Part shown: positions 7,001-60,600 of the stretch, piece by piece
Layout of the letters: the number at the start of each line of letters is the position of its first letter
Position numbering within the stretch: the first letter of the stretch is position 1
From: Watersipora subatra
Lineage: Eukaryota > Bryozoa > Gymnolaemata > Cheilostomatida > Watersiporidae
DNA length: 64,000 nucleotides
Assembly (NCBI RefSeq): GCF_963576615.1
Contig: NC_088712.1
Coordinates: 30,099,870-30,163,869 of the forward strand
Direction: 5' to 3'
Notes under the pieces: model-generated
Told to the model about the DNA's origin: nothing
Database searches by the model: none
The model's input: the letters and a program-made list of their open reading frames with translations, nothing else
Program-made: the position numbers and the translations under genes

Positions 7001-10000
7001 AAATTTCTCAGCTTTTCAAAATTGTTTTGGGAATTGAAATTGAAGCAATTTAACCTGAGATGCAGCTTTTTATCGAAGGTGATGTTGGTCAATATGGTCA
7101 ACACAACAAACCAAAAATTTTTTCTCAAAGATGATAGGTTGGATTTTAAACAGTATTATTTGTTGATACTTGAAAGGTCATAAGGTCATAACAGCCGCAC
7201 ACTAAAAACATTACACTTTGATAAACGTTAGAAATGACTACATAAAAGCCACATTGACGATTTTCACTCTAGGAGCCTATTGTGCATCATATGAAATGCC
7301 TCATTTGTATTAAAAATGATTTGACCTGTCACATATCTTATGTAATCCATGCATAGACATTGCATGTTATTAGAATACACAAAATTGAGAGTTTTTGTGA
7401 TATTACGGCTAAATGTTGTGAAATTCATAATGCATAGCTTGTCCTGCTAATCCATAAATTACAAAGTTTTAATCATTTGCCCAACTTTGGTGGTAGATAT
7501 GACTCTGTACCCTGATATGCTTTGACCTTATTTGACCTACATCTTCTATTATCTACATATTACTTCTTCAGCAATAATTTAATCTCACTTGTAGGTGCTG
7601 CCTAAGTAATATAACCTCACTTGTAGGTGCTGCCTAAGTAATATAAGCTCACTTGTAGGTGCTGCCTAAGCAATATAAGCTCACTTGTAGGTGCTGCCTA
7701 AGCAATATAACCTCACTTGTAGGTGCTGCCTAAGCAATATAAGCTCACTTGTAGGTGCTGCCTAAGTAATATAAGCTCACTTGTAGGTGCTGCCTAAGCA
7801 ATATAACCTCACTTGTAGGTGCTGCCTAAGCAATATAAGCTCACTTGTAGGTGCTGCCTAAGAAATATAAGCTCACTTGTAGGTGCTGCCTAAGTAATAT
7901 AAGCTCACATGTAGGTGCTGCCTAAGTAATATAAGCTCACTTGTAGGTGCTGCCTAAGTAATATAAGCTCACTTGTAGGTGCTGCCTAAGCAATATAAGC
8001 TCACTTGTAGGTGCTGCCTAAGAAATATAAGCTCACTTGTAGGTGCTGCCTAAGCAATATAATCTCACTTGTAGGTGCTGCCTAAGCAATTTAATCTCAC
8101 TTGTAGGTGCTGCCTAAGTAATATAAGCTCACTTGTAGGTGCTGCCTAAGCAATATAACCTCACTTGTAGGTGCTGCCTAAGCAATATAAGCTCACTTGT
8201 AGGTGCTGCCTAAGTAATATAAGCTCACTTGTAGGTGCTGCCTAAGTAATATAAGCTCACTTGTAGGTGCTGCCTAAGTAATATAAGCTCACTTGTAGGT
8301 GCTGCCTAAGTAATATAAGCTCACTTGTAGGTGCTGCCTAAGTAATATAAGCTCACTTGTAGGTGCTGCCTAAGTAATATAAGCTCACTTGTAGGTGCTG
8401 CCTAAGTAATATAAGCTCACTTGTAGGTGCTGCCTAAGTAATATAAGCTCACTTGTAGGTGCTGCCTAAGCAATATATGCTCACTTGTAGGTGCTGCCTA
8501 AGTAATATAAGCTCACTTGTAGGTGCTGCCTAAGCAATATAATCTCACTTGTAGGTGCTGCCTAAGCAATATAATCTCACTTGTAGGTGCTGCCTAAGCA
8601 ATATAAGCTCACTTGTAGGTGCTGCCTAAGTAATATAATCTCACTTGTAGGTGCTGCCTAAGCAATATAATCTCACTTGTAGGTGCTGCCTAAGTAATAT
8701 AAGCTCACTTGTAGGTGCTGCCTAAGTAATATAATCTCACTTGTAGGTGCTGCCTAAGTAATATAAGCTCACTTGTAGGTGCTGCCTAAGCAATATAACC
8801 TCACTTGTAGGTGCTGCCTAAGCAATATAATCTCACTTGTAGGTGCTGCCTAAGTAATATAAGCTCACTTGTAGGTGCTGCCTAAGCAATATAATCTCAC
8901 TTGTAGGTGCTGCCTAAGTAATATAAGCTCACTTGTAGGTGCTGCCTAAGCAATTTAATCTCACTTGTAGGTGCTGCCTAAGTAATATAAGCTCACTTGT
9001 AGGTGCTGCCTAAGCAATATAACCTCACTTGTAGGTGCTGCCTAAGCAATATAAGCTCACTTGTAGGTGCTGCCTAAGCAATATAACCTCACTTGTAGGT
9101 GCTGCCTAAGCAATATAAGCTCACTTGTAGGTGCTGCCTAAGCAATATAACCTCACTTGTAGGTGCTGCCTAAGCTCAGAAGCTTCCTTCAAACAATCAC
9201 AATGTCCGAAGATCTGGTCACCAAGTTCAGGTCAGACTCAGATTTAACCTTTAACCTAGAGTTGTCTACTCCTGGAACTCCAGTTATCATTGAAAGCCCT
9301 GCGCCAGAGCTGTACTCCAGGTGAGAAGAACGAGGAAAGCTATTAATGTAGCACCATTAATATAAATTTAGTTTAGATTAATATGCTTCCAGAGCTGTAC
9401 TCATTTAAAGGCCGCGTGAATATATTGAGACTGCATGATTAGCCATGTGTGTGTTGTTATGAATTTCATGTTGTGACCAGATTTGAATGTTTGAACTCTA
9501 TCAAGATAATATGATAAGTATGATGTGACACGCTTGATAACAAAAAGCGGTCTCACTCCTTCGCTACGGAAAGCCTTTATAACAGCTAGCCTTGGTACCT
9601 TGACAAAAATATTCATCACGGGTCACAGAGTTAACAGATCCACCCAAAATTTTGGCTCACCAAATTTAGGATATTGGGTTATCATTTTAATAAAAAAACG
9701 AATCAGTTTGTTTTCTTTTACTTACAATTCATAGAATAATATCGGGGTTTCCAAATTCTTTTTCTTCAGTTTAGGAAGGATTAAAAGAAACATTGTATAC
9801 AACGACCTAACCATATTTCTGCTTGTGAAATTCTTCAACACGGTATCAAATATTTCTATAACTACATTTTTATATTAGAGAATGGACTGCGTTTTTTTTC
9901 AAACTGCGAAAACGGTAGCGGTTTTTTTGCATTTTGTTTCACAAAACCAACAAAAATACTAAACGTGGGCTTTTGATTTTTAAATGCATTGATTTTTGTT

Positions 10001-33600: not shown

Positions 33601-36600
33601 CCCGGTTTCTTACTGCTTTCTTTCTGCTGTCATGTTTAATGCTTAATAATAGTAGCCATTAGAATTAATACTGGTGTAGCATGTTTTTGTTACCATTGTC
33701 TGACCATCTACTATGCACACATGCTTGTTAGTTTGAGTAATCTATAGTGCTATGCCAAATGCACATCAGCTTATGGTCAAAAAATTGTTTTACCGTTTCC
33801 TCCACCGTCCACTTTATTTTCTAAGATAAGCTGAAGCTACTCTGCTACTTCATATTTTATATAATCCTAACCTATTGGTTGATCCCCTTTCTGTAGGGCT
33901 GCACAGTAATAGAGATGCTCTCTGTTGTAGAGAGGTAATTACCAGTACATCAGAGCGTCCTTGGATGAAGGTTCATCCCTGTCAAGGTAAGATTGTATGG
34001 GGTGAAAGGTTATGGTTATGCAGTCAGTTTAGGGTTTAACTGACTTGCCTTGCTGAAGCTTCCTGCATGAGCTCACAACGTCATCATCTATATACGAGTA
34101 TATAAAATTCAGGTGTTTGTATTACTTGTATATTTGAAAGCTAAACAGCAACTGACTTACTACATAAGTGAGACAAGAGAGTAAAAGGATTATTACATAA
34201 GAATTACATAACAGATGAGTGAGTCAATATGAACAAAAAGTCTGACAACGGCAAATACAAATACAAGATAATGACTGTGGTCAATGTCAACAACTAGTAC
34301 ATATTCAACAGTTTGTGTGTCGTCGTATGTCCACTTAATAGCAATTTATTAAAATCCGCACACTTACAAGCTTCTGCGGTCCAGTGTGCAGTGAGAGATC
34401 ATATTGTGTAATGATTATACGCACAATTATTCCAAGGTGTGGCAAGGTGGCTGTAGTGGTAGTGCCCTTGCCTTCACATCTGTGCATTCGAATGGACAGG
34501 TTTGATTCCTGTCAGGTGCAATTTTTTTTATGTCGCTCTTAGCTGGTTTTGGACAGATACGGCTTTTATTATAGTAAAGATTAAAATAGTAGCTGGAGTT
34601 ACTAGCTGGAGTTACTAGCTTAAGTTACTAGCTGGAGTTACTAGCTTAAGTTACTAGCTTAAGTTACTCGAACTCATTGAGTAAAGAAACTAAGCCAATA
34701 GCAACTACAATACCTGCCACTGCTTATAAACTTTTTTAAATCTTGAGTGAATGTGTAGCATATGAAGTAAGAAGTGTTTTTCAACAATCTGTTTTAGCTC
34801 TGCTTTGAGGGTTCGAGTGTTTGAATTATGCATTGCTCGGACACACACAGAAATAAAAAAAATACCATTATTTAGAAATTAAAATGGTAAATGTTGTATA
34901 TGTTGATTAAAAATAAATTTTCTATGCAAAAACTTTTATATTACTCATGCAATGTTGGGCATTCAGTAATATATATAATAATATATATATATAAAATATG
35001 TAGAAGTGGAACTTCACTTTATAGGTTTAAACATTTTATTACTAATAGCTTCATGTGGTACAATAAGTAAGTACACATGAAACTATTAGTAACTCATATA
35101 TGTTACTTCTCGTATATGAACTTCTCTCTATATGTTTAACTTATAGAGAGAAGTTCCACTTTTACATATTTTATAATTTAGCTCTGATTCATCATTGAGC
35201 ACTCTATAACCAATTGTGCAACATACACTTCATATATATATATATATGTATATATATTATACTCATGCTACAGACAGTACTGTTTCGGCTATTGAAGCCT
35301 CATCAGTGCAGCTCAGAGCTTAGGCAAGGGACACAAATCCCATTACCAATGAGAGTTGACTTCCTGCCATGAAACAACAAAGTTGCCTCACAGACTTTAA
35401 GAAAGTCAATGTGCTGGCACCAGAGTGCTCAAATCACAAAAGTGATGAGCTTTGCACAAAGGCTAATAGTGCCGCACCTCTCACAGAGTGCTCAACCAAA
35501 CTGAAGTAAGGGAGCATATACTCATGCTACAGACAGTACTGTTTCGGCTATTGAAGCCTCATCAGTGCAGCTCAGAGCTTAGGCAAGGGACACAAATCCC
35601 ATTACCATTCTGTATATATATATATATATATTATATATACATGTGTATATATATGATAATGGACTTACCATCTAACTACACAACCGTTTTTACTGTATTT
35701 TATTATATGATTGTTCTATTATAAATCAGCTCATGGATAATTCAATTTACTACTTCGTGTTTCTCAAGATAAGCGCGACAAGAGTCAGCTAAAAGGAAGC
35801 ACTATGTGCATGCTCTCTTCATCATAGAGCTGCTGTTGAGGTGTTTTATAGCTTGCGTATCTACGATAGTTCCACTGACACTAGATATGAGCCTTTCAAA
35901 AGTTCTTTTATTTGACTGTTTTCTTCAGCAAAATACTGATGTTCCCTAAACACTTTTTTTATTGCATAATTACAATAATTATAACAACTTATCTTTGGAA
36001 AATGTGCTGCCTCCTGATTAACTTTGCTATTGCTAAGTTAGGTAAATAATTCACAAACTCTAGCAGATATTATTAACCATGTTACTCCAAGTGTATCCAG
36101 TATCTTTAATTTTCCTTGGTATGCTTTGTGTATACCCTGGCACGCACAGGTTCATATGCACACTGAATGTTTATACCCTGGTATTTACAAGTTCATATGC
36201 TCACTAAATATTTATACCCTGGTATTTACAAGTTCATAAACTCACTAAATATTTATACCCTGGTATTTACAGGTTCATATGCTCACTGAATGTTTATACC
36301 CTGGTATTTACTGGTTTATATGCTCACTGAATGTTTATACCCTGGTATTAACAGGTTCATATGCACACTGAATGTTTATACCATGGTATTTACAGGTTTA
36401 TATGCACACTGAATGTTTATACCCTGGTATTTACAAATTCATATGCTCACTGAATGTTTATACCCTGGTATTTACTGGTTCATATGCTCACTGAATGTTT
36501 ATACCCTGGTATTTACAGGTTTATATGCTCACTGAATGTTTATACCCTGGTATTAACAGGTTCATATGCACACTGAATGTTTATACCATGGTATTTACAG

Positions 36601-39600
36601 GTTTATATGCACACTGAATGTTTATACCCTGGTATTTACAAATTCATATGCTCACTGAATGTTTATACCCTGGTATTTACTGGTTTATATGCACACTGAA
36701 TGTTTATACCATGGTATTTACAAGTTCATATGCTCACTAAATATTTATACCCTGGTATTTACAAGTTCATATGCTCACTGAATGTTTATACCCTGGTATT
36801 TACTGGTTCATATGCTCACTGAATGTTTATACCCTGGTATTTACTGGTTTAAATGCTCACTGAATGTTTATACCCTGGTATTAACAGGTTCATATGCACA
36901 CTGAATGTTTATACCATGGTATTTACAGGTTTATATGCACACTGAATGTTTATACCCTGGTATTTACAAATTCATATGCTCACTGAATGTTTATACCCTG
37001 GTATTTACTGGTTTATATGCTCACTGAATGTTTATACCCTGGTATTTACAGGTTCATATGCACACTGAATGTTTATACCATGGTATTTACAGGTTTATAT
37101 GCACACTGAATGTTTATACCCTGGTATTTACAGATTCATATGCACACTGAATGTTTATACCATGGTATTTACAGGTTCATATGCACACTGAATGTTTATA
37201 CCATGGTATTTACAGGTTTATATGCACGCTGAATGTTTATACCCTGGTATTTACAGGTTCATATGCACACTGAATGTTTATACCATGGTATTTACAGGTT
37301 TATATGCACACTGAATGTTTATACCATGGTATTTACAGGTTTATATGCACACTGAATGTTTATACCCTGGTATTTACAGGTTCATATGCTCACTGAAAAT
37401 GTATCCAAACAGCGAACAAACCTTAACAGATATTCGGTACATCTATCCAAAACTGATGAAGAAGGTAGAGTCTAAACAAGGCCTTACCACGTTAGGTAAG
37501 AACGGCAAATGACTATTCGACTGCTAAGATTTCCATGAATGCTCTTCTTTTATCATCACTTTCTTTGAAGTTTAGTTCAATCACTTTTTGTGATTAGCGT
37601 GTCCAATAATATACAACCTTGTTTTTGAAAAAGTTACAGTGCCATCTTTTTGGTGTACGATTGGTCCAACGACATCATTGGTCTAATGCTGATTGGTCCA
37701 AATATACAGATTGGTCTAATTACTGTGCCAAATTTCTTTATTTTAGCTACTGCTATTTTTCTTGCTATTTTCTGAGCCAGAAAAAATTCGCTTCGCAAAT
37801 TGAACTCGGAATTGAATTTTGAATCTCCAGTTGCAAAGACAGGCATACTATTCATTACACTACACGTACAAGTGGCTATACTGTGGAATAATTATGCCGA
37901 TTGGTTAAAATAGCATGCTTTACGCTTCAGTAGCATGCAACGCCGGGCATTCACCTAGTTAATTATTAAAGCTCAATACTAATAACGTTGTTATTTTAGT
38001 TCAAATTTTCATGCTAGAAATAATTAGTTTTGAGCTTAGGGCAGTGCCTATTCTGACAAGTTTGTTTTCAAACTGTCCATTAAAATCTGTCTCAAACCCA
38101 ATTCACTTTCATGACATCTATCATATCTACCATATCGTACATACCATGCCCCATATGTATTTTTGTGCATTTTCTGCAAGATAACGGCAGGTACTATGAA
38201 AAGGTCCTGCGCAGCACTAGAGCCACGGTTGTCTGGCACCTGTACATGTATTTGTAAACAAACATCCTATTTTTGCAATGTCTGCTAAGACAGGCTACCG
38301 CCATTGATGGGTTATTGTCTGGTGCTGCACTTTCTCCAATTATTACTAAGTTTTTATACAGTGCTAGTCTAGCGACTCCTGGGTGGTCTAGCTAGTCTAG
38401 TGACACCTGGGTGGTCTTGCTAGTCTAGCGACAACTGGGGGTCTAGCGATACCTGGGTGGTCTAGCTAGTCTAGTGACACTTGGGTGGTCTTGCTAGTCT
38501 AGCGACAACTGGGGGTCTAGCGATACCTGGGTGGTCTAGCTAGTCTAGCGACACTTGGGTGGTCTTGCTAGTCTAGCGACAACTGGGGGTCTAGCGATAC
38601 CTGGGTGATCTAGCTAGTCTAGCGACACCTGGGTGGTCTAGCTAGTCTAGCGACACCTGGGTGGTCTAGCTAGTCTAGCGACACCTGGGTGGTCTAGCTA
38701 GTCTAGCGACACCTGGGTGGTCTAGCTAGTCTAGCGACACCTGGGTGGTCTAGCTAGTCTAGTGACACCTGGGTGGTCTAGCTAGTCTAGCGACACCCGA
38801 TGTACCAGTGCTGAAGCGCTACGCCGAGCCGACAAGCAGATCATGTTTCCATAGGGTGCTATGGTAGTGTGATGGTTGTGCGACGCATTATGTATCCAAA
38901 TTGAAAATTTTGATTTCAGGGTTGGTTCATACAGCCTTCTCTTCAGTCATTATCTGTTTCAAATAAAAACAGAAAGATTAGAGCGTTTCAGCAACAAAAA
39001 ATTCTGTACATGTATATGAAACGACAGGAAAGCAAGACCTATGAGCTCACAAGTGCAATGCCGAAGACAATGATTGCAGTGATTGACAGTGGTTGCTAAG
39101 ACAATGACAATTAGACAATTAGACAATGACGATGAGACAATAATATTGTCTCACCGCAAGATGTTGCATCGAATGACTGTTTTGCTTCCAAACAGCCACA
39201 TTGAATCACGATAGAATGAGGGTGACACGGCTGTTTCCATGATGTTATTGCAGCTCTATATGGGGGTGTGTGGCTACGCTATCACTGTATGGGACCTTGG
39301 TATATACATGTATTTTACTTGTTTTATGGCTCAGTTCTTTTCATTCTATTGACCTCTTAAATTTCTAGACTATGTGTTTACTGAACCACTCAACTGCTAC
39401 TCGCTGACAGACAGTCAGCAAAGAGATAGGCAGTCTCCTCTCTACCATTTCTCTTTCCAACAGATGGTTCCTTCTATTTCTGTCCCCGATCATGGAAGAG
39501 GCCTCCTGCTTCTGAACAATATGTAAGTAACTTTCTCCTGGTGTACACATGTACATTTAGTTATTTATTAGTATACACACGTGTATGTAGGTATTTATTA

Positions 39601-42600: not shown

Positions 42601-45600
42601 TACTAAAAGAAAATACTAAGAAATAATGATCTTTCTTTCAAGGATCTTCTACCATATAAAAAGTCCCTTAGCAAACCTCTGCTCGCTACAATATCGGTTG
42701 CTGCACCTGCAAGAGCTGTCACAATATCACAGCCATCTGATCTGATAATAGCATTAGATCACCCAGACTGCAAGAATAGCGCACAAGTTGGTGGCAAAGG
42801 CAGTCAGTTAGCCGTGCTCTATCAGGCGGGCCTTCAGGTAAATATTCCATTAGTAATTATCAACTGAAGTAAATTACTGCTAGTAATAAGATATGATTGG
42901 ATAGCTCTGTAATATTATATATAGTAGTAAGATATGATTAGATAGCTCTGTAATATTATGAATAGTAATGAGATATGATTGGATAGTTCCATAATATTAT
43001 TGATAGTAAAAAGATATGATTGGATAGCTCTGTAATATTCTTGATAGTAATAAGATATGATTGGATAGCTCTGTAATATTCTTGGTAGTAATAAGATATG
43101 ATTGGATAGCTCTGCAATATTCTTGGTAGTAATAAGATATGATTGGATAGCTCTGCAATATTCTTGGTAGTAATGAACACATTTCTGCAAAGTGAGTGCA
43201 TAATATAGTTGCTCAAATGTATGCAGAACAGAAACGTACACAAAGGTTTTTACTGTGCTACCAAGACTTGATGGTTAAACAGGACTTGATGGTAGAGCAG
43301 CATATGGAAATTATTTATAGCTATTTTTATGGCTGTTTCATCGTTATTTCTTCTCTTTAATTTGTATCACTATTTCTTATTGCAACGTGTAGTTTATCGT
43401 TATTCCATGTATTGTTTATGATAAACACCTCGCAGTATGTCTTATTACAAATGTCAAGGTCAGTATGCGAGGATGCTGCACTACCTCTGCTAGAATAGCA
43501 AACTTCACTATTATAGTGGGTAACAGATAAATATTTGTCAATATTTTTATCTGTTGTGAGCAGTGGATCCGCATTTGAATTCTGTTTTACAGATTATTTT
43601 CACTAGAGCCTTTGTGACGCGCTGCACTTTCTAAATATAAAACATAAAATGACTATTCGAAGGAACAAATAAACCTGAAAGTGAATTGAAACAGTAGTCA
43701 ACGCTGAGGCTTGTTTCATCTTAGCTTGTTATTTACTGTTGTTATTATTGTTGTAGTGCTGCATTCCTATGGCTGCCTGTCTCACTGTTGAGGCATTCAA
43801 CTTACAGCTTGAAACCTGTCCACATCTGTCAGTGTTGTTCTCCCAATTAAACTCAAGTGTTGATGCTTCCATAGAGAGTGTTAAGGTGAGACACCTGTTG
43901 TATCATATTATGTTTATTTCTATGTAACAAGCAGGGTTGGCATATTATTCCTGGTGCGGTAAATACGTGCGGTGAATACGCGCGGTGAATACGCGCGGTA
44001 AATACACGCGGTAAATACGTGCGGTAAATACATGTGGTAAATTTGGGTATATACCGGTAAATACCAGTGGTATTTACCAGTATTTACCATCCTGGAATAA
44101 AGTATGAATATTTACAGTTTGCAAAAAACTGGAATTATAGTTTGCTAATTTAGATACATGTATATTAAAGATTTATCGATTTATAAATCAATTTTATAAC
44201 TTTATTTTCGGTAATAATATGCATATATTGTAATATATATATTATATACAATAAATATACACGGGGAAACATTAATTTTCAAATTACATGTAAATATCGA
44301 AAGACACAACTTGCAATATTGAACTTTTGAACAATGTTGAACTCGAATAAAAATTAAGTAAGAAAATGATACTTGTAGACTCGTGTATGATGAATATACT
44401 GATACGTAGTGTTCTATAGTCTTTCTCACAATTATTACATTGTCTTTGAATTAACTACATGTATTGAGCTGAACTGAGCATGTATACATGTATATATGTT
44501 CACTCATTAATAAAGTCTCAGCCCAGAAGAACTCACCTACTGATTCACTCTAACTTTTTAATAATCCACTCAGAATTTCACTCAAAATTCTGCCCGGGCA
44601 AGTATTTTCCCACATCCCATTCCTGGCAGCAATAAACTGTATGCATGAACCAAATTGTTGGCAATCATAAAAGAATAATCAACTAATTCTTAATATAGTT
44701 CTATTTTTCAGGATTGTGCCTAGGTTATTATCTGTTCACCATGTGCAGGATTTGTCATTAACAAATACATTTGACCATATCAGATTTTTAAGCTGGCAAT
44801 ATGAGATATCTGCTGCTCTCTGCTTGGAGTATTCGTCAACTGTGATATTAATAGTTACGACAGGCAGTTATATCTTATAACTATCTTTCTCACAGGAGCT
44901 GTGCGATAAACTCAAACAGTGTATCTTAGCCTCTCAAGTTCACGCGAAGGTAAGGGCGGCTATAGAAGGCGTTGTATCAGACTCAGGGATATTCCATGAA
45001 GATTGCAGGCTTGCCGTCAGGTCATCTTCGATTGGTGAGGATAGTTTGCATTATTAAACCGTCTCTAATCACCTCTACAACATAAATATTGTCTATTGAC
45101 AAGTAGGACTTATTATTATAAAATCCTTAAATGTTAACAGATTGAAGACCATTCTCTGATTAATCATCTCTAAAAGGTTGCCTGTATCTGACCCGAAACT
45201 GCAATTTAATCTATTAGTAATTAGGTGTGACTAGTTATTATCATATTATCTAAAATATTTATGGGTATATAACGCGTGTTCGCCTCACAGAAATGCTGAG
45301 TTTCGAAATTGCAGCCCCTCTTTGCTTACAAACTTTCACAAATAGATGTGCCTGCAAAGTTTTTTTTTAACTTTGCCGTGGTTTAGGAAACAGAAAGGGT
45401 ATGCATAGGGTATCCAGAAGTGATCTCTGTTGAAGTGATCTCTGTTGAAGTGATCTCTGTTGAAGTGATCTCTGTTGAAGTAATCTCTGTTGAAGTGATC
45501 TCTGTTGAAGTGATCTCTGTTGAAGTGATCTCTGTTGAAGTGATCTCTGTTGAAGTAATCTCTGTTGAAGTGATCTCTGTTGAAGTGATCTCTGTTGAAG

Positions 45601-48600
45601 TGATCTCTGTTGAAGTGATCTCTGTTGAAGTGATCTCTGTTGAAGTGATCTCTGTTGAAGTGATCTCTGTTGAAGTGATCTCTGTTGAAGTGATCTCTGT
45701 TGAAGTGATCTCTGTTGAAGTGATCTCTGTTGTGCCAAATATAAACTTTTGTACTTGATTTTAAGCTACTGCATCCGTTGGAGTTTTCTTCTCTTATGTT
45801 TTTATGTTTTACGAATGTTCACCCAGACTCTGTTAAAAGAATGTGAGTAGTTTTCTCAGCAGGTTATTTCAGGTAGGAGTTATTCATTTTCTGAGTTTCC
45901 GCATGGCTATTGTGAACACTAGAATAATATTATAATCCTAAGGACATTAGAGTATCCATCATATTTGTAGTTCTTAATTGTTTATCTTTACATTAGATGA
46001 TAATTAAATACAATGTATATATGATTATAGCATATCCTGTTAAAATTTGCAGGTGAGGATGGAGTTGACCAGTCTGCTGCTGGCCAAATGGACACAATTC
46101 TTGGGGTTAAAGGTCAATCACGAGTGCTTGAAGCTGTGTTGCAGTGCTGGGCTTCTTATTTTTCATTTACTGCAGTCCAGTACAAACGGTAGGTACACCA
46201 TTCTCACTGTTCCGCAGCAGGTGCCGGCAACTTGATTCTAAATAGTCTTACATATGCAGTGATTGCTTTCATATTATATCTTTATTTCTTGTACAAGAGA
46301 TTTATAGGTAATCTATATCAAGTAACAGAGTATTTAGTTGCTAGAGTTGATGAGCATGTGAGCTACATAGAGTGAACAGGGGACACCTGTATTTATCTGT
46401 CAGATGAGTGAACAGGGGACACCTGTATTCATCTGTCAGATGAACGCGTTTAATATTTCAATCCTGAGTGTAATTCATGAATAGGAAATTCCTTCATAAC
46501 ACCAGATCCCATAATGATCTCTACTACACACCGAAATTGATTGAGTTAACTAGCTCTACCGCTGACTAAGTTCAAGGTGAAATCTAACTAAAGAAATCTA
46601 AACACAGTAGACGCTCTTATAACGTGAATCTTGTATAATATCAATTCCGTCTTCCGTAAAAAATTTGTGTTAAATTTTTGATTCATTTTCTATAAAAAAT
46701 TCTATATGACACAAGTGTCTATACGGTGTGAGTTTTCTAGCTGGATTTGAATAACAAAAATCTCATGGCTAGCCTTTTAAATGTCGTTTTCTCTCTCGCC
46801 GCTTGTTGGGTAGAAAATGATGTATAAGGGTATCTTTATTATACAAATCACAGACAGCTGCACAATTAATCAAAATTATTCAGAGGTGGTTGATTGGTGC
46901 AGATGTTAGAGTGTCAGCCATGTTGAATGTGTCACGAGTTGGAGTCTTGTTGAAAGCAATCTTAATCTTATCTTAGTTTGCTCTTAACCTTTAACCTTCG
47001 GACAGACGGACAAACAGACGGACAAACAGACAGACACAGCTCGTATTATAGTAAGGATATAGTTGTGTTTTACCATATTTTTGATATATACAATTTTTTT
47101 TTCTCCTGCAGCATACATCCTGCTGTCTAAAAACAATTCACATTTAAATTGACATTGAAGGTGTGCACTACCCTTGATTTAACGTAAACTTACCCTAAGT
47201 CTGATCATGAACCCTAAACCAAGTGAAAATGATAAGAAAAAATGGAAAAAGTTGTTTATACAAATCAATAATACTAAAGCTATTGTACAGCCATTAAATT
47301 GAGAGGTTTATTGTTTTCTTTTTGAAGGGCCAAGTTGGTGAGTTTCTGAATGTTTTAGGACAGATTAGGCAGTTAACACTTATTTTACTGCTCGCATAAC
47401 ATAAAATCCCTACAATGCAAACATTCTCGGAACTGATTATTTATGTTGTAAGAGCATCTACTGTGTGCGTATTTGGTTGTGGCTCCTTACTCTCTCTTTC
47501 CTCTTCTTTCCTTCCTTTCTCTTTGCTCTTTTCTCAAACAATAATAGACTGATGTCATAATGGCTAGATGTGTAGATGGCTAGATGCGTAGATGTGTAGA
47601 TGTGTAGATGTGTAGATGTGTAGATATATGAAAATTTGCCAAAAACTGCTTTTAGTTTTCACTTCTTTTTCTGGCTTAATACTGTTGAAGATTTATTTTT
47701 CTAATTTAATAATCTTCAGCTCTCATGAGTTCTGTTACCATGGCAACTCAAGTCATGATGTGCTCAGCTTGAGTCGATAAGGTTCATGAAAAGGTGAGAA
47801 AATGAGTAACAATTCCTTTAGTTTTGCCCACTGTCATAATATAAGGCAGCACAAAACTGTGCTTTTTACTTTGTGCAGAGAGCATGGCCAGCCACTTCAC
47901 ACTGGCATGGCTGTCGTCATCCAAGAGATGGTAGATGCCGAGGCTGCTGGAGTCCTTTTTACTTATCATCCTGTCACCAGCAGCATTTCAACTATGGTTC
48001 TGAATTCTAACCTTGGCCTTGGAGAGGTAAGTCGTACCTAAATCGTTTCTTCGTTTTTAATAAAACATCAAAATCCAAACAGCAATCATCGCTTGCTCTA
48101 GCAGTGATATTGTTACTTGCAGGTGAGTTTACTTCAACTAGTACTACAGGGTATACAGTATAACATACTCTAACTAGTACTAGGGGATACACAGTATAAC
48201 ATACTCTAACTAGTACTAGGGGATACATAGTATAACATACTCTAACTAGTACTAGGTTATACACAGTATAACATACTCTAACTAGTACTAGGTGATACAC
48301 AGTGTAACCTACTCTAACTAGTACTAGGTGATACACAGTGTAACCTACTCTAACTAGTACTAGGTGATATACAGTATAACATACTCTAACTAGTACTAGG
48401 TGATACGCAGTGTAACCTACTCTAACTAGTACTAGGGAATACACAGTGTAACCTACTCTAACTAGTACTAAGTGATACGCAGTGTAACCTACTCTAACTA
48501 GTACTAGGGAATACACAGTGTAACCTACTCTAACTAGTACTAAGTGATACACAGTGTAACCTACTCTAACTAGTACTAAGTGATACACAGTGTAACCTAC

Positions 48601-51600
48601 TCTGACTAGTACTAGGTGATACACAGTATAACCTACTCTAACAAGTACTAAGTGATACACAGTGTAATCTCCTCTAACTAGTACTAAGTGATACACAGTG
48701 TAACCTACTCTAACAAGTGCTAAGTGATACACAGTGTAACCTACTCTAACAAGTACTAAGTGATACACAGTGTAACCTACTCTAACTAGTACTAAGTGAT
48801 ACACAGTGTAACCTACTCTAACTAGTACTAAGTGATACACAGTATAACCTACTCTAACTAGTACTAAGTGATACACAGTGTAACCTACTCTAACAAGTAC
48901 TAAGTGATACGCAGTGTAACCTACTCTAACTAGTACTAGGGAATACACAGTGTAACCTACTCTAACTAGTACTAAGTGATACGCAGTGTAACCTACTCTA
49001 ACTAGTACTAGGGAATACACAGTGTAACCTACTCTAACTAGTACTAAGTGATACACAGTGTAACCTACTCTAACTAGTACTAAGTGATACACAGTGTAAC
49101 CTACTCTAACTAGTACTAGGTGATACACAGTATAACCTACTCTAACAAGTACTAAGTGATACACAGTGTAATCTCCTCTAACTAGTACTAAGTGATACAC
49201 AGTGTAACCTACTCTAACAAGTACTAAGTGATACACAGTGTAACCTACTCTAACAAGTACTAAGTGATACACAGTGTAACCTACTCTAACTAGTACTAAG
49301 TGATACACAGTGTAACCTACTCTAACTAGTACTAAGTGATACACAGTGTAACCTACTCTAACTAGTACTAAGTGATACACAGTGTAACCTACTCTAACTA
49401 GTACTAAGTGATACACAGTGTAACCTACTCTAACTAGTACTAAGTGATACACAGTGTAACCTACTCTAACTAGTACTAAGTGATACACAGTATAACATAC
49501 TCTAACTAGTACTAAGTGATACACAGTGTAACCTACTCTAACTAGTACTAAGTGATACACAGTGTAACCTACTCTAACTAGTACTAAGTGATACACAGTG
49601 TAACCTACTCTAACTAGTACTAAGTGATACACAGTGTAACATACTCTAACTAGTACTAAGTGATACACAGTGTAACCTACTCTAACTAGTACTAAGTGAT
49701 ACACAGTGTAACATACTCTAACTAGTACTAAGTGATACACAGTGTAACATACTCTAACTAGTACTAAGTGATACACAGTGTAACCTACTCTAACTAGTAC
49801 TAAGTGATACGCAGTGTAACCTACTCTAACTAGTACTAGGGAATACACAGTGTAACCTACTCTAACTAGTACTAAGTGATACACAGTGTAACCTACTCTA
49901 ACTAGTACTAAGTGATACACAGTGTAACCTACTCTAACTAGTACTAGGTGATACACAGTATAACCTACTCTAACAAGTACTAAGTGATACACAGTGTAAT
50001 CTCCTCTAACTAGTACTAAGTGATACACAGTGTAACCTACTCTAACAAGTACTAAGTGATACACAGTGTAACCTACTCTAACAAGTACTAAGTGATACAC
50101 AGTGTAACCTACTCTAACTAGTACTAAGTGATACACAGTGTAACCTACTCTAACTAGTACTAAGTGATACACAGTGTAACCTACTCTAACTAGTACTAAG
50201 TGATACACAGTGTAACCTACTCTAACTAGTACTAAGTGATACACAGTGTAACCTACTCTAACTAGTACTAAGTGATACACAGTGTAACCTACTCTAACTA
50301 GTACTAAGTGATACACAGTATAACATACTCTAACTAGTACTAAGTGATACACAGTGTAACCTACTCTAACTAGTACTAAGTGATACACAGTGTAACCTAC
50401 TCTAACTAGTACTAAGTGATACACAGTGTAACCTACTCTAACTAGTACTAAGTGATACACAGTGTAACATACTCTAACTAGTACTAAGTGATACACAGTG
50501 TAACCTACTCTAACTAGTACTAAGTGATACGCAGTGTAACCTACTCTAACTAGTACTAGGGAATACACAGTATAACATACTCTAACTAGTACTAAGTGAT
50601 ACACAGTATAACATACTCTAACTAGTACTAAGTGATACACAGTGTAACCTACTCTAACTAGTACTAAGTGATACACAGTGTAACCTACTCTAACTAGTAC
50701 TAAGTGATACACAGTGTAACCTACTCTAACTAGTACTAAGTGATACACAGTGTAACCTACTCTAACTAGTACTAAGTGATACACAGTATAACATACTCTA
50801 ACTAGTACTAAGTGATACACAGTGTAACCTACTCTAACTAGTACTAAGTGATACACAGTGTAACCTACTCTAACTAGTACTAAGTGATACACAGTATAAC
50901 CTACTCTAACTAGTACTAAGTGATACACAGTGTAACCTACTCTAACTAGTACTAAGTGATACACAGTGTAACCTACTCTAACTAGTACTAAGTGATACAC
51001 AGTATAACCTACTCTAACTAGTACTAAGGGATACACAGTGTAACCTACTCTAACTAGTACTAAGTGATACACAGTGTAACCTACTCTAACTAGTACTAGG
51101 TGATACACAGTGTAACCTACTCTAACAAGTACTAGGTGATACACAGTGTAACCTACTCTAACAAGTACTAAGTGTTACACAGTGTAACCTACTCTAACTA
51201 GTACTAAGTGATACACAGTGTAACCTACTCTAACTAGTACTAAGTGATACACAGTGTAACCTACTCTAACTAGTACTAAGTGATACACAGTGTAACCTAC
51301 TCTAACTAGTACTAAGTGATACACAGTGTAACCTACTCTAACTAGTACTAAGTGATACACAGTGTAACCTACTCTAACTAGTACTAAGTGATACACAGTG
51401 TAACCTACTCTAACTAGTACTAAGTGATACACAGTATAACCTACTCTAACTAGTACTAAGTGATACACAGTGTAACCTACTCTAACTAGTACTAAGTGAT
51501 ACACAGTGTAACCTACTCTAACTAGTACTAAGTGATACACAGTATAACCTACTCTAACTAGTACTAAGGGATACACAGTGTAACCTACTCTAACTAGTAC

Positions 51601-54600
51601 TAAGTGATACACAGTGTAACCTACTCTAACTAGTACTAGGTGATACACAGTGTAACCTACTCTAACAAGTACTAGGTGATACACAGTGTAACCTACTCTA
51701 ACAAGTACTAAGTGTTACACAGTGTAACCTACTCTAACTAGTACTAAGTGATACACAGTGTAACCTACTCTAACTAGTACTAAGTGATACACAGTGTAAC
51801 CTACTCTAACTAGTACTAAGTGATACACAGTGTAACCTACTCTAACTAGTACTAAGTGATACACAGTGTAACCTACTCTAACTAGTACTAAGTGATACAC
51901 AGTGTAACCTACTCTAACTAGTACTAGGGGATACACAGTGTAACCTACTCTAACAAGTACTAGGTGATACACAGTGTAACCTACTCTAACTAGTACTAAG
52001 TGATACACAGTGTAACCTACTCTAACTAGTACTAAGTGATACACAGTGTAACCTACTCTAACAAGTACTAGGTGATACACAGTGTAACCTACTCTAACTA
52101 GTACTAAGTGATACACAGTGTAACCTACTCTAACTAGTACTAAGTGATACACAGTGTAACCTACTCTAACTAGTACTAGGTGATACACAGTGTAACCTAC
52201 TCTAACTAGTACTAAGTGATACACAGTGTAACCTACTCTAACTAGTACTAAGTGATACACAGTGTAACCTACTCTAACTAGTACTAAGTGATACACAGTG
52301 TAACCTACTCTAACTAGTACTAAGTGATACACAGTGTAACATACTCTAACTAGTACTAAGTGATACACAGTGTAACCTACTCTAACTAGTACTAAGTGAT
52401 ACGCAGTGTAACCTACTCTAACTAGTACTAGGGAATACACAGTATAACATACTCTAACTAGTACTAAGTGATACACAGTATAACATACTCTAACTAGTAC
52501 TAAGTGATACACAGTGTAACCTACTCTAACTAGTACTAAGTGATACACAGTGTAACCTACTCTAACAAGTACTAGGTGATACACAGTGTAACCTACTCTA
52601 ACAAGTACTAAGTGTTACACAGTGTAACCTACTCTAACTAGTACTAAGTGATACACAGTGTAACCTACTCTAACTAGTACTAAGTGATACACAGTGTAAC
52701 CTACTCTAACTAGTACTAAGTGATACACAGTGTAACCTACTCTAACTAGTACTAAGTGATACACAGTGTAACCTACTCTAACTAGTACTAAGTGATACAC
52801 AGTGTAACCTACTCTAACTAGTACTAAGTGATACACAGTGTAACCTACTCTAACTAGTACTAAGTGATACACAGTATAACCTACTCTAACTAGTACTAAG
52901 TGATACACAGTGTAACCTACTCTAACTAGTACTAAGTGATACACAGTGTAACCTACTCTAACTAGTACTAAGTGATACACAGTATAACCTACTCTAACTA
53001 GTACTAAGGGATACACAGTGTAACCTACTCTAACTAGTACTAAGTGATACACAGTGTAACCTACTCTAACTAGTACTAAGTGATACACAGTGTAACCTAC
53101 TCTAACTAGTACTAGGTGATACACAGTGTAACCTACTCTAACTAGTACTAAGTGATACACAGTGTAACCTACTCTAACTAGTACTAAGTGATACACAGTG
53201 TAACCTACTCTAACTAGTACTAAGTGATACACAGTGTAACCTACTCTAACTAGTACTAAGTGATACACAGTGTAACATACTCTAACTAGTACTAAGTGAT
53301 ACACAGTGTAACCTACTCTAACTAGTACTAAGTGATACGCAGTGTAACCTACTCTAACTAGTACTAGGGAATACACAGTGTAACCTACTCTAACTAGTAC
53401 TAGGTGATATACAGTGTAACCTACTCTAACTAGTACTAAGTGATACACAGTGTAACCTACTCTAACTAGTACTAAGTGATACACAGTGTAACCTACTCTA
53501 ACTAGTACTAAGTGATACACAGTGTAACCTACTCTAACTAGTACTAAGTGATACACAGTGTAACCTACTCTAACTAGTACTAAGTGATACACAGTGTAAC
53601 CTACTCTAACTAGTACTAGGTGATACACAGTGTAACCTACTCTAACTAGTACTAAGTGATACACAGTGTAACCTACTCTAACTAGTACTAGGTGATACAC
53701 AGTGTAACATACTCTAACTAGTACTAGGTGATACACAGTGTAACCTACTCTAACTAGTACTAGGTGATACACAGTGTAACATACTCTAACTAGTACTAGG
53801 GAATACACAGTGTAACCTACTCTAACTAGTACTAAGTGATACACAGTGTAACCTACTCTAACTAGTACTAAGTGATACACAGTGTAACCTACTCTAACTA
53901 GTACTAAGTGATACACAGTGTAACATACTCTAACTAGTACTAAGTGATACACAGTGTAACCTACTCTAACTAGTACTAAGTGATACGCAGTGTAACCTAC
54001 TCTAACTAGTACTAGGGAATACACAGTATAACATACTCTAACTAGTACTAAGTGATACACAGTATAACCTACTCTAACTAGTACTAAGTGATACACAGTG
54101 TAACCTACTCTAACTAGTACTAAGTGATACACAGTGTAACCTACTCTAACTAGTACTAAGTGATACACAGTATAACCTACTCTAACTAGTACTAAGGGAT
54201 ACACAGTGTAACCTACTCTAACTAGTACTAAGTGATACACAGTGTAACCTACTCTAACTAGTACTAAGTGATACACAGTGTAACCTACTCTAACTAGTAC
54301 TAGGTGATACACAGTGTAACCTACTCTAACTAGTACTAAGTGATACACAGTGTAACCTACTCTAACTAGTACTAAGTGATACACAGTGTAACCTACTCTA
54401 ACTAGTACTAAGTGATACACAGTGTAACCTACTCTAACTAGTACTAAGTGATACACAGTGTAACATACTCTAACTAGTACTAAGTGATACACAGTGTAAC
54501 CTACTCTAACTAGTACTAAGTGATACGCAGTGTAACCTACTCTAACTAGTACTAGGGAATACACAGTGTAACCTACTCTAACTAGTACTAGGTGATATAC

Positions 54601-57600
54601 AGTGTAACCTACTCTAACTAGTACTAAGTGATACACAGTGTAACCTACTCTAACTAGTACTAAGTGATACACAGTGTAACCTACTCTAACTAGTACTAAG
54701 TGATACACAGTGTAACCTACTCTAACTAGTACTAAGTGATACACAGTGTAACCTACTCTAACTAGTACTAAGTGATACACAGTGTAACCTACTCTAACTA
54801 GTACTAGGTGATACACAGTGTAACCTACTCTAACTAGTACTAAGTGATACACAGTGTAACCTACTCTAACTAGTACTAGGTGATACACAGTGTAACATAC
54901 TCTAACTAGTACTAGGTGATACACAGTGTAACCTACTCTAACTAGTACTAGGTGATACACAGTGTAACCTACTCTAACTAGTACTAGGGGATACACAGTA
55001 TAACATACTCTAACTAGTACTAGGGAATACACAGTGTAACCTACTCTAACTAGTACTAAGTGATACACAGTGTAACCTACTCTAACTAGTACTAGGTGAT
55101 ACACAGTGTAACATACTCTAACTAGTACTAGGTGATACACAGTGTAACCTACTCTAACTAGTACTAGGTGATACACAGTGTAACCTACTCTAACTAGTAC
55201 TAGGGGATACACAGTATAACATACTCTAACTAGTACTAGGTGATACACAGTGTAACCTACTCTAACTAGTACTAAGTGATACACAGTGTAACCTACTCTA
55301 ACTAGTACTAGGTGATACACAGTGTAACATACTCTAACTAGTACTAGGTGATACACAGTGTAACCTACTCTAACTAGTACTAGGTGATACACAGTGTAAC
55401 CTACTCTAACTAGTACTAGGGGATACACAGTATAACATACTCTAACTAGTACTAGGGAATACACAGTGTAACCTACTCTAACTAGTACTAAGTGATACAC
55501 AGTGTAACCTACTCTAACTAGTACTAGGTGATACACAGTGTAACATACTCTAACTAGTACTAGGTGATACACAGTGTAACCTACTCTAACTAGTACTAGG
55601 TGATACACAGTGTAACCTACTCTAACTAGTACTAGGGGATACACAGTATAACATACTCTAACTAGTACTAGGGAATACACAGTGTAACCTACTCTAACTA
55701 GTACTAGGTGATACACAGTGTAACCTACTCTAACTAGTACTAGGTGATACACAGTGTAACCTACTCTAACTAGTACTAAGTGATACACAGTGTAACCTAC
55801 TCTAACTAGTACTAGGTGATACACAGTGTAACATACTCTAACTAGTACTAGGTGATACACAGTGTAACCTACTCTAACTAGTACTAAGTGTTACTAATAA
55901 AGATGTTCAAGATTTTTCAATATAATTTTTGCATTTAGATTGTAGCAGTTTACTTGATTTGTAGTCTGTGGTTTCTGGAGTTTCAGAGCCTGATACGTTT
56001 TACATCACTCGTTCAGCGGATAACGAGCTGTTGCTGAGTGATAAGAAGCTAGGAAGAAAGGAAGTACAGTACCTAATTGATGGTAACTCTATTTTTGTTA
56101 GACCAACTTGATTGTAGTGAAAATCTATGCACAGGGTCCTCTCGTCAAAGTACCATAGTATCATACTAGTTTCATAACTTCTTTTACGGTTCTTTCCTTT
56201 AGTCTTTGCTGATTTTCTCTTTTCAGCACTACCAACACTTCAAATGGTTTTTTTGGATTTGATGATTTCAAAAAATTATAAAAGGGAAGTACGAAGCTCT
56301 GTTTAATATTATTCAAACACCATAAAACCAATTTGAGCGACGGAGAACTTTGTAAATATTTACACTGATTTACGAAACTGTGATTTTTAGAGGAACTTTA
56401 GAGTTTGGATGTTGAGTCAAATCTTTACTCTAATTCTACACAATATGTTGAAACATGTGCTTACCAAGGGATGATAACTCTAATTCTACACAATATGTTG
56501 AAACATGTGCTTACCAAGGGATGATAACTCTAATTCTACACAATATGTTGAAACATGTGCTTACCAAGGGATGATAACTCTAATTCTACACAATATGTTG
56601 AAACATGTGCTTACTAAGGGATGATAACTCTAATTCTACACAATATGTTGAAACATGTGCTTACTAAGGGATGATAACTCTAATTCTACACAATATGTTG
56701 AAACATGTGCTTACTAAGGGATGATAACTCTAATTCTACACAATATGTTGAAACATGTGCTTACTAAGGGATGATAAATTGAGGTATGTTTGTCCTTCCA
56801 ATTCAAAAAATCAGTTGACCGTGTATATGGTAATTTATCGTTTTAGATTCGGGTGAAGTCACTCGGCAGATGGCAACTCATAACTCCGGTTTCTCCATCT
56901 CCGACGACATGGCGCTTCTGCTTGCCCGTGTTGGGTTAGAGCTAGAGCAAGGCTTCGGACATCCCTGCGACATTGAATGGGCTGTTTGTCAAAGTCGCAT
57001 TTATCTTCTTCAGGTGAGTCCTTTCAGCATAAAACTTTGGTTTTTATGCGTAGTTTTTTAAAGCACACAGATTCTGTCTCATTAAAAAGTAGTTTTTGAA
57101 AACAGGAAACATTAAAACAGGAGGTTGTAGAGCAAATTACTTCTGTGTTTAATTGTGAGTCCTGTTGTTTCCTTGATCTTTCATATCCACTGTTAGTTCT
57201 TTGCCTTTAATATAATTGGATAAAACTGGAACAGAGTGCAGTTTAGTGTCACATGATGTCTAGCAACTTGCCAAATCCCTTCTAATGTTAACATATAAAC
57301 CATAAAGGAGACATTGCTTTGCAGAACATGTAAGGATAGTTGATAAAATAGAATTAAAAAAGGAGTCAGGGAATGATGCATATATACTGTGGTAAGGTCG
57401 CTATTGTCTGACTACTGCATGATGCATATTTTGGTTTAGAGCCGCCCGATCACAACGCTGCATACGGAAACTCAGTATGAGCTCTTGCACGAGTTTGACT
57501 CTCCACTGGTGATGGACCACGAGATGCTTTCTACCATGAATATAGGGTGTGTAAGCCTATGCAGATGATTCATGTCAGCAGGTGCTCTCATTAACTCTCT

Positions 57601-60600
57601 GCTGTCAGATTGCAAGTATAAGTTGTACCTATTAGTTTTATCGACTGGGCTCAAGATTTAACCGGCAGGTTAAAAGATAAGCAGTAGCATGGTAGATCAG
57701 CAGGTGCAAAACTGATATAATCCCTGGCCGGTCATCAGCTGTCAGGTGTCAGCAGGTGGCCGCTCATGTCACTGTATGTCTCCTTGAACACAGTTTTAAC
57801 AGCCATTCCTGAACATTTTGATATGTAACATAATATTCAATTTTTAAAAGATGCTTGAAGCTGCAGTTAAAGAATTACCTGTCGGCACTTCAAGGCCACT
57901 AACTAGTTGGGCCATTGGTCATGTTCAGCAGTAGTATGCTAAGAGAAGTCACATGAACCTTCCAACTTTTGATTTTACCCATGATGTATTGAATGTCCTT
58001 AAAAACATTTGATAAATGTTTGTAAATATGTCGTAGTTCTGTTTTAAGACATAATTACCTTGTTCACACACGATTCTAGCGGCTAAATAATAATGATTGA
58101 GTCTTTTTACTATGTAGACTTCAAGTACAGGTGGTCGATATTCTACTTAAAAAGCTAACCCGCTCCTTAGAAAATCCTAAAGCTTTACCAAATCATTTGT
58201 ATGAAGTTCTAGACATGCTTTTTCTCTTGTATAAGACATGATTTCCGAGTTGGATTTTTTTCATTAGTCTATCAAGTATAAAAAAACTTGGATTCCTGTC
58301 TCCATCATTCATCATTTAATTTTAGCTAAATAAATTATTTACTTTGAGTTCAAAGACTTAATCATATATCATTGTATAGGTTGAACGTATCAGAATTTTA
58401 TTGAGTCAATTTGCTTGCATTTTTATTATCTACAACTGTGACAAGGTAAGTTATTATGTACCGAAAGCCAAAGTTTGTTACAGCATTCTTTATTAACATA
58501 AAATTTGGTCATAATAGCTGTAATCGTAATGCAGTTTTGTTTAAATGGTCATTAAATTTTTATACACAAGTTTAATTACAATTACGATTACTCAAGTTAG
58601 GAGGCGCTCTTTTATTGCAGCTGTTTATAAATTACTTGCAAAACTGAAATACGCTCTCAAAGTAGATTGTCAGTTTCCTATTTAATTTCTATCAAGTAAA
58701 TTGGTGTTCATGTGATGTGTAAACACATTAGGAGACTACAACATAAGTAGTTTGAAGGAGTAATGTTTGCTGTTCAATCAGACGAAAGGATTTTTAGTTT
58801 CTATGGCAGTAAAGCAAAAGGTGCTCTGTCTGACATCGAGAGTGTTAAAAATGCTACTGCTCTGGGCACTCTTTGGCAGTATGTCTGTTTTAGTCGCATG
58901 TGGAGATAATCATGTGAACCTTTAGCGATGTGACGAGTCAAATAAATTGATAAGTATGTCAGTTGACTGGTTGCTGACTGTGAGAGTAAAACAGATGGTT
59001 TGCATATAAAACTAACAATGATTTAGTACATTCCAAGTGAGGTTATCCAATTACCTTATAAGTATTCACCTACATGAGTTGGAAGCAAGCAAACTGATAT
59101 AAACGGCATCGATTAAACTGTTCATTCCATGTGTACTACTGCTACATGTGTACTAGTACTAGTGTTACAGTACTACTGCTTGAACTAGCTTCAAATAAAA
59201 CAAAGCAAATCTCTAGATATATGCCTTCAAAATAGTTGAATACATTTATATCATTGATCTGATTCACACTTGTCTCCTATTTTTTTACTAAAGCTGTGTT
59301 AGAATCTGTTTACCGGAACAAAAAATGGGCGACTTTGTGTCACTGTATATATAAATATTTGCAGAGAGGTGATACCTGAAGCAGTGTGTCCTTTGACTTA
59401 CTCTACCGTCATATCTTGCCTTGAGCATGCTATGCAAGTACGTGTATTCCAATGTTATGCAAGTAAATATATTCCAATATTATGGAAGTGTTTTCCAATG
59501 TTATGCAAGTAAATATATTCCAATGTTATGTAAGTAAGTGTTTTCCAATGTTATGTAAGTGTGTTCCAATATTATGTAAGTAAGTATATTCCAATATTAT
59601 GTAAGCTAATATATTCCAATATTATGTAAGTAAGTATATTGCAAGGAATGTTATAACAGTTAGATAAACCCCTGCAGATAGCGTTGAGTTATTTCTGTTT
59701 GAAGAAATTTGTGCGAAATTTGGGCCATCGATGCTCAGCAGATGCCATGATTACAGTCAAGATCTTCTACAGCAGACTCTTCATAAATGTGCATGTGAGT
59801 TGTTCTTCCCCTTTCATACTTCCTACACTTCAAATATATTAATATAGCATTCAACAAAAACTAATTTTTTAAAGTACGTGTGTGAGCCAAAATTTTAACT
59901 TATTATTTATTTATAATAAGTTTTCAATATTTATTTATTTTAACTTTTTTACTGCTTTCTAATTAATTTAATTGTATTGTTTTTGTTTCAGTGAACATTT
60001 TTTAACCACGAATTACTGAAACCGTGAAAGGTAAGCCGCCACGTAACGAGGGATTATACACATGTAATAAGAGGGGAGGTAATATCGGTCATGTAAACAA
60101 TGGACCAGGGTACTAGTGCCAATAATATCAGTGTTCGGGTTTACACCAAACACCCGTTTAAGCATCAAATATGAGGTTATTCTTTTGCCATTGACATTGA
60201 AGGAAATCACTTTTTCAAAGTTTATATCTATATACTTTGCTGCCTTAGAAGTCAATTGAAACGTTATAATGGCTGAAGTGAACATCTTCTTCTCAGTCAC
60301 TCGAAGTGCACAAGGGACGTTCACTGCTAGCTGATAGAAGAATGATGGAATTGGCATTGGCTGGCCACATGATCGACTCGATGACTGATGATGAAGTCAC
60401 ATCCTATCATCATACAGTTCCTTTCCTTGATAGACTATTTAACAGTTTCCGCTTTGTCTATGTGAGTCTATCGCACACTCTTCATTCAAATGCTATGACT
60501 TGCTCTTTAGGAGTTGTCTTATTTCTAATTTGGTAATCAATTTCATTTGTAAACTTTTCTTAATTAAAAATGCTGTTTTTTGGGTTTACTAACATAAATT

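Follow-up and report, generated by a model that had tools for sequence, protein, structure and literature searches.

How does a tandem repeat come to lie across an intron-exon boundary, and which of many near-identical acceptors is then used? The question is raised by a gene, here gene B, in the 64,000-nucleotide stretch of DNA that we analyzed (the window), where intron 8 ends in a 41-bp minisatellite that runs into exon 9. Judging from sequence, we consider it highly probable that this is a boundary-spanning minisatellite, or "mirage", in a PEP-synthase-like gene, passive and spliced to the copy closest to the exon.

The array and the gene that carries it

The array was delimited by TRF at 36127-37397 (31.0 copies, 91% matches, 0% indels) with a score of 2045, which is beyond a chance match. 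Stepping backward from 37380 by 41 nt recovered 31 copies in register, while the next step gave 34 mismatches to the consensus. In each unit, 23 intronic nt lead up to the acceptor and 18 exonic nt follow it; a CTGA resembling a branch point seems to be present as well, with a short run of pyrimidines. The copies comprise 19 distinct units with a mean pairwise identity of 0.915. A weak higher-order periodicity of five units is visible: identity is 0.934 between copies five apart, versus 0.911-0.927 for the remaining lags up to 10. The original prediction had placed about 31 copies before exon 9; the array is confirmed, but with 30 copies ahead of the exon and the 31st coinciding with the boundary, where it supplies, as had been proposed, the acceptor and the first 18 coding bases. 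The AG of the acceptor is present in 18 of 31 copies and lost in 13, and it is intact in the nine copies closest to the exon (the exon copy and eight upstream). In the coding part of the unit, the GCTCAC originally given is that of the exon copy and 15/31 copies overall, but GCACAC is slightly commoner (16/31). The features of this region, all on the + strand, are as follows.

33931..33986, +, exon 8 of gene B, 56 nt, leaves 2 bases (open joined frame)
33987..37379, +, intron 8 of gene B, 43% tandem repeat
36127..37379, +, stretch of the 41-bp minisatellite within intron 8: 30 full copies upstream plus 23 nt of the last (TRF, copy tables)
37380..37397, +, portion of the last array copy within the coding exon, 18 nt (TRF, copy table)
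37380..37495, +, exon 9 of gene B, 116 nt, takes 1 base, leaves 1 (joined frame; acceptor 7.5, donor 9.0)
39464..39522, +, exon 10 of gene B, takes 2 bases (open joined frame)
42643..57546, +, span of gene B exons 11-18 with the PPDK_N match; exon 11 start uncertain (Pfam, PDB)
59365..59437, +, exon 19 of gene B (open joined frame)

Splice sites were scored with weight tables from general knowledge, and exons were chained by phase, by hand. When joined, the 18 exons from 2 to 19 (23863-59437) give 684 codons with no stop, all introns being GT-AG and all phases matching, and the frame stays open across exons 19-22; the model is partial and covers exons 2-22. The phase continuity proposed from exon 8 through exon 9 to exon 10 is thus borne out.

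Gene B was identified through its product. Residues 328-637, encoded by exons 11-18, match Pfam PF01326 (PPDK_N) with an E value of 1.8e-67, the ATP-binding domain of the PEP synthase / rifampicin phosphotransferase type, and a PDB search matched chains named phosphoenolpyruvate synthase, among them 5hv1 (E 1.6e-45), which we take to be a rifampicin phosphotransferase. With the partial model, none of the 16 listed NCBIfam families of the same group reached its cut-off (best 212.9 versus 1300). The N-terminal part of the product, including exon 9, matched no family searched in Pfam or NCBIfam and no PDB chain; its first 299 residues gave two weak matches among plasmids (E 6), and a search for relatives in viral contigs yielded none that was confirmed. 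The introns mark the gene (23863-60800), whose product falls in the bacterial-type PEP-synthase group, as eukaryotic and most likely from an animal.

Repeats at other junctions in the window

To each of the 40 junctions of exons 2-22 we applied a comparison with its own intron, with 40 shuffles per junction. Two were outliers, the exon 9 acceptor (z 23.7) and the exon 19 donor (z 12.1), the next highest value being 3.7. This belongs to the exon 18 acceptor, which scored above all 40 shuffles; together with the exon 16 donor (3.2), the acceptors of exons 13 (2.8) and 21 (2.3) and the exon 4 donor (2.2), it forms a set of weak resemblances that may be chance among 40 tests. The exon 19 array is the donor-side mirror of the exon 9 array: eight of its nine donor copies have GT, and the frame is open through exon 22 from one of the nine, the exon-proximal copy.

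A third case lies in another gene, gene A, where the original prediction had seen the same architecture at 7.6-9.2 kb with an unrelated unit. The array found there is built alike, and its unit is not detectably related to that of exon 9, as the alignment score of 17 was reached by 133 of 2000 shuffles. The gene A exon is a candidate identified by phase and codon score (+9.9): it fits in phase with 6489-6569 and 10848-11011, giving 134 open codons, and matched no protein family above cut-off. All 49 upstream copies of its array have the AG, and all 49 lead to a stop.

7576..9175, +, 50 copies of a 32-bp unit, the last including the acceptor and the opening 13 nt of the gene A exon (TRF; AG in 50/50)
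9163..9320, +, candidate gene A exon, takes 0 bases, leaves 2 (phase fit, codon score)
59427..59644, +, 25-bp array at the exon 19 donor, its first copy including the final 11 nt of the exon together with that donor (TRF, z 12.1)

Ranked by variability, the two AG columns of the exon 9 array come fourth and fifth among the 41 unit positions (minor fraction 19% and 23%), a loss that the gene A array does not show. Selection against decoy AGs is not claimed, because gene A holds the AG in 50/50 copies.

We also asked whether repeats favor splice junctions. Tandem arrays are present in 15 of 20 introns of modelled gene B and account for 14,066 of 34,475 intronic bases (40.8%). From a list of 46 arrays, hand-merged from 77 TRF rows, the 27 intronic ones were placed at random within their own introns, reaching at most 25 nt into exons, in 20,000 draws. 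At least two junction overlaps, the number observed being two, occurred in ~47% of draws; a preference for splice junctions is therefore unsupported, and no attraction of repeats to splice sites is needed in this window. A common seed for the arrays was likewise rejected. The array in intron 2 (24374-24998) and the exon 9 unit, at its coding start, have the 12-mer CATATGCTCACT in common, and none of 2000 single-pair shuffles reached the score of this pair; however, when all 406 pairs of 29 units were considered, 18 of 40 shuffled sets reached the same maximum, so the likeness is not significant.

Origin of the array and choice of acceptor

Joining exon 8 to an upstream copy leads to a stop in 30 of 30 cases, at the same codon in 29. 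Because the unit is 41 nt long, the frame changes with each copy added, and TGA occurs in one of the unit's three frames. The expectation that every third copy would keep frame fails because it counts length only, and such use from exon 8 is ruled out. The sole open use of an upstream copy that we found is hypothetical: exon 8 would be skipped and exon 7 spliced to the first upstream copy. Overall, what had been observed from the sequence was right, and its reading mostly so.

What is observed is the array, the stops and an exon frame that stays open; from these we infer an order of events, a splice choice and a fate for misjoined messages. A duplication of ~41 nt would have straddled the intron 8 acceptor, the copy with coding sequence would then have been fixed by protein-coding need, and the remaining copies may have multiplied into the intron via slippage or unequal exchange. 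Coding need would hold the exon-side copy in place and leave intron-side copies free to multiply, which would explain arrays growing away from the exon. The spliceosome would join exon 8 to the exon-proximal copy at 37380 and remove the 30 upstream copies with the intron, whereas use of an upstream copy would bring an early stop into the message, with decay as the expected outcome. Position 37380 is probably chosen by exon definition, because no other copy borders a complete exon that ends, 116 nt on, in a good donor; the upstream acceptors would give exons of 157 to 1346 nt, compared to 116 nt and a donor score of 9.0 for the modelled one.

To call the array built from the acceptor, as the original prediction did, is to presume a direction of origin. 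The opposite direction, in which a minisatellite of intronic origin extended across the boundary, overwrote the first 18 nt of the exon and moved or remade the acceptor, strikes us as unlikely. In its favor, the exon copy is one base from six copies and so does not look like an outlying ancestor; because these six are scattered along the array, copy distances do not prove that the exon copy came first. The share of arrays among the intron bases of gene B also suggests that they often arise without splice sites. Against it, the frame and phase of exon 9 are continuous with those of its neighbors, and the residues at the exon 8-9 join resemble what we take to be a strand typical of the PEP-synthase protein group.

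The array could also be a regulatory switch rather than passive, with upstream acceptors used at a set rate, unproductive messages as the result and copy number tuning expression. Acceptor scores of the 17 AG-bearing copies among the 30 upstream range from 5.2 to 7.5, near the 7.5 of the modelled site, and all of these copies lead to a stop; for human CBS, a review (PMC5188458) relates more 31-bp repeats to lower activity. In contrast, the lancelet data (PMC3087553) suggest that such arrays do not interfere with regular splicing, and the gene A decoys hold the AG in 49/49 copies with no tuning pattern visible. We regard a switch as quite improbable.

If the exon 9 model were wrong, the array would coincide by chance with non-exon sequence, which we consider very unlikely. 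The exon lies outside the homology matches, and its codon score of -3.2 is moderate (per codon like exons 6 and 10): of 1403 overlapping intronic windows free of stops, 152 score as high. At 35929-36041, a competing candidate exon with identical phase has a nearly equal site-and-length score (25.4 versus 26.2) and a stronger acceptor (9.6 versus 7.5), but its codon score is much worse (-14.6). Among phase-matching candidates between exons 8 and 10, compared without those starting at 36127-37300 within the array, exon 9 had the top score; arrays of the same geometry are also found at exon 19 and in gene A. Taken together, exon 9 is likely to be real, though not proven.

A bolder proposal, to which we give very slight credence, is that splice boundaries repeatedly seed minisatellites in the genes of this animal, outside lancelets, and that the 17 upstream AG acceptors of exon 9 form a copy-number-dependent trap. 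If so, more copies would yield more early-ended messages, and the array would be a length-variable dial on expression. Recursive splicing, with the AG/GT of each copy as a zero-length exon and the intron removed in 41-nt steps, has virtually negligible probability: CAG/GTTCAT or CAG/GTTTAT occurs in 16 upstream copies, but these donors score 1.5-2.2, whereas none of the 21 modelled donors falls below 3.6, and the highest donor-like score anywhere in the array is 3.4. By these scores, the acceptors are not followed immediately by a usable donor.

Comparison with known boundary-spanning repeats

Boundary-spanning minisatellites are already known from lancelets and one human gene. In lancelets, tandem repeats spanning an intron-exon boundary were named mirages and described for Adh3 and the globins BflGb6 and BflGb9 (PMC3087553), to which PGBD5 and troponin C were added (PMC3902484); all cases that we encountered under this name come from lancelets. 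The exon 9 array shares three features with this class. First, its 31 units each combine 23 nt of intron and 18 nt of exon sequence from one boundary, that of the modelled exon. Second, as in the lancelet cases accessible to us (PMC3087553, PMC3902484), the duplicates lie beside an authentic boundary, recognized here by phase and open frame, and many keep AG or GT. Third, the lancelet examples occur on the acceptor or the donor side, and our window holds acceptor-side arrays at exon 9 and in gene A and a donor-side array at exon 19. In the same excerpts, Adh3 units measure 10-72 bp, a range that includes the 41 and 32 bp found here, whereas BflGb6 has six or three units of 150-160 bp depending on haplotype, compared to our 31 x 41 bp and 50 x 32 bp. 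RT-PCR and length instability are reported there for lancelet mirages, while the present arrays are known from one sequence.

The human CBS gene likewise contains a minisatellite at an exon-intron boundary, a 31-bp VNTR designated c.1444_1467+7(16_21) in the parts seen of PMC2630376 and PMC5188458. As we read it, this name means 24 exon and 7 intron bases per unit, a reading that does not fit the excerpt of PMC5188458 in which the repeat is called non-coding. The CBS repeat differs from the exon 9 array in lying on the donor side, in another gene and host, and in varying from 16 to 21 copies between people. Tandem repeats that modify human gene structure are the subject of PMC2812944, to judge from the part available; no further boundary-spanning case stood out in the open-licence literature, judged from listings.

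Tandem copies with splice signals are also a feature of two intron-gain systems. Zhuo, in 2007, reportedly traced human introns to tandem arrays. Rogers (1989), as cited in the accessible part of PMC3087553, proposed that introns can be gained when AG/GT proto-splice sites are duplicated in tandem. Unlike in either system, no new intron position is seen here, and the repeats lengthen an existing intron.

Such arrays offer a natural test of how the spliceosome chooses among near-identical sites: gene A offers 50 AG copies, gene B offers 18 at exon 9, including the modelled site, and the exon 19 donor array adds eight GT copies. Consistent use of the exon-proximal copy would favor exon definition over choice of the first AG. 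Should the host be other than a lancelet, mirages would be more widespread than the cited papers suggest.

Several other features of the window were recorded. A 36-bp array of ~215 copies at 48136-55894 fills 98% of gene B intron 15. The gene A candidate exons 10848-11011 and 11879-12076 encode peptides that are similar by eye (LPSFNN-E), possibly through exon duplication. Inspection by eye showed two occurrences of a ~90-bp stretch within 35260-35610, ~260 bp from each other; this could be a dispersed repeat, and 32 of its bases had no match in viral contigs. Finally, Rfam at gathering thresholds gave one tRNA match, at 25289-25361 inside gene B intron 2, which is perhaps the head of a SINE.
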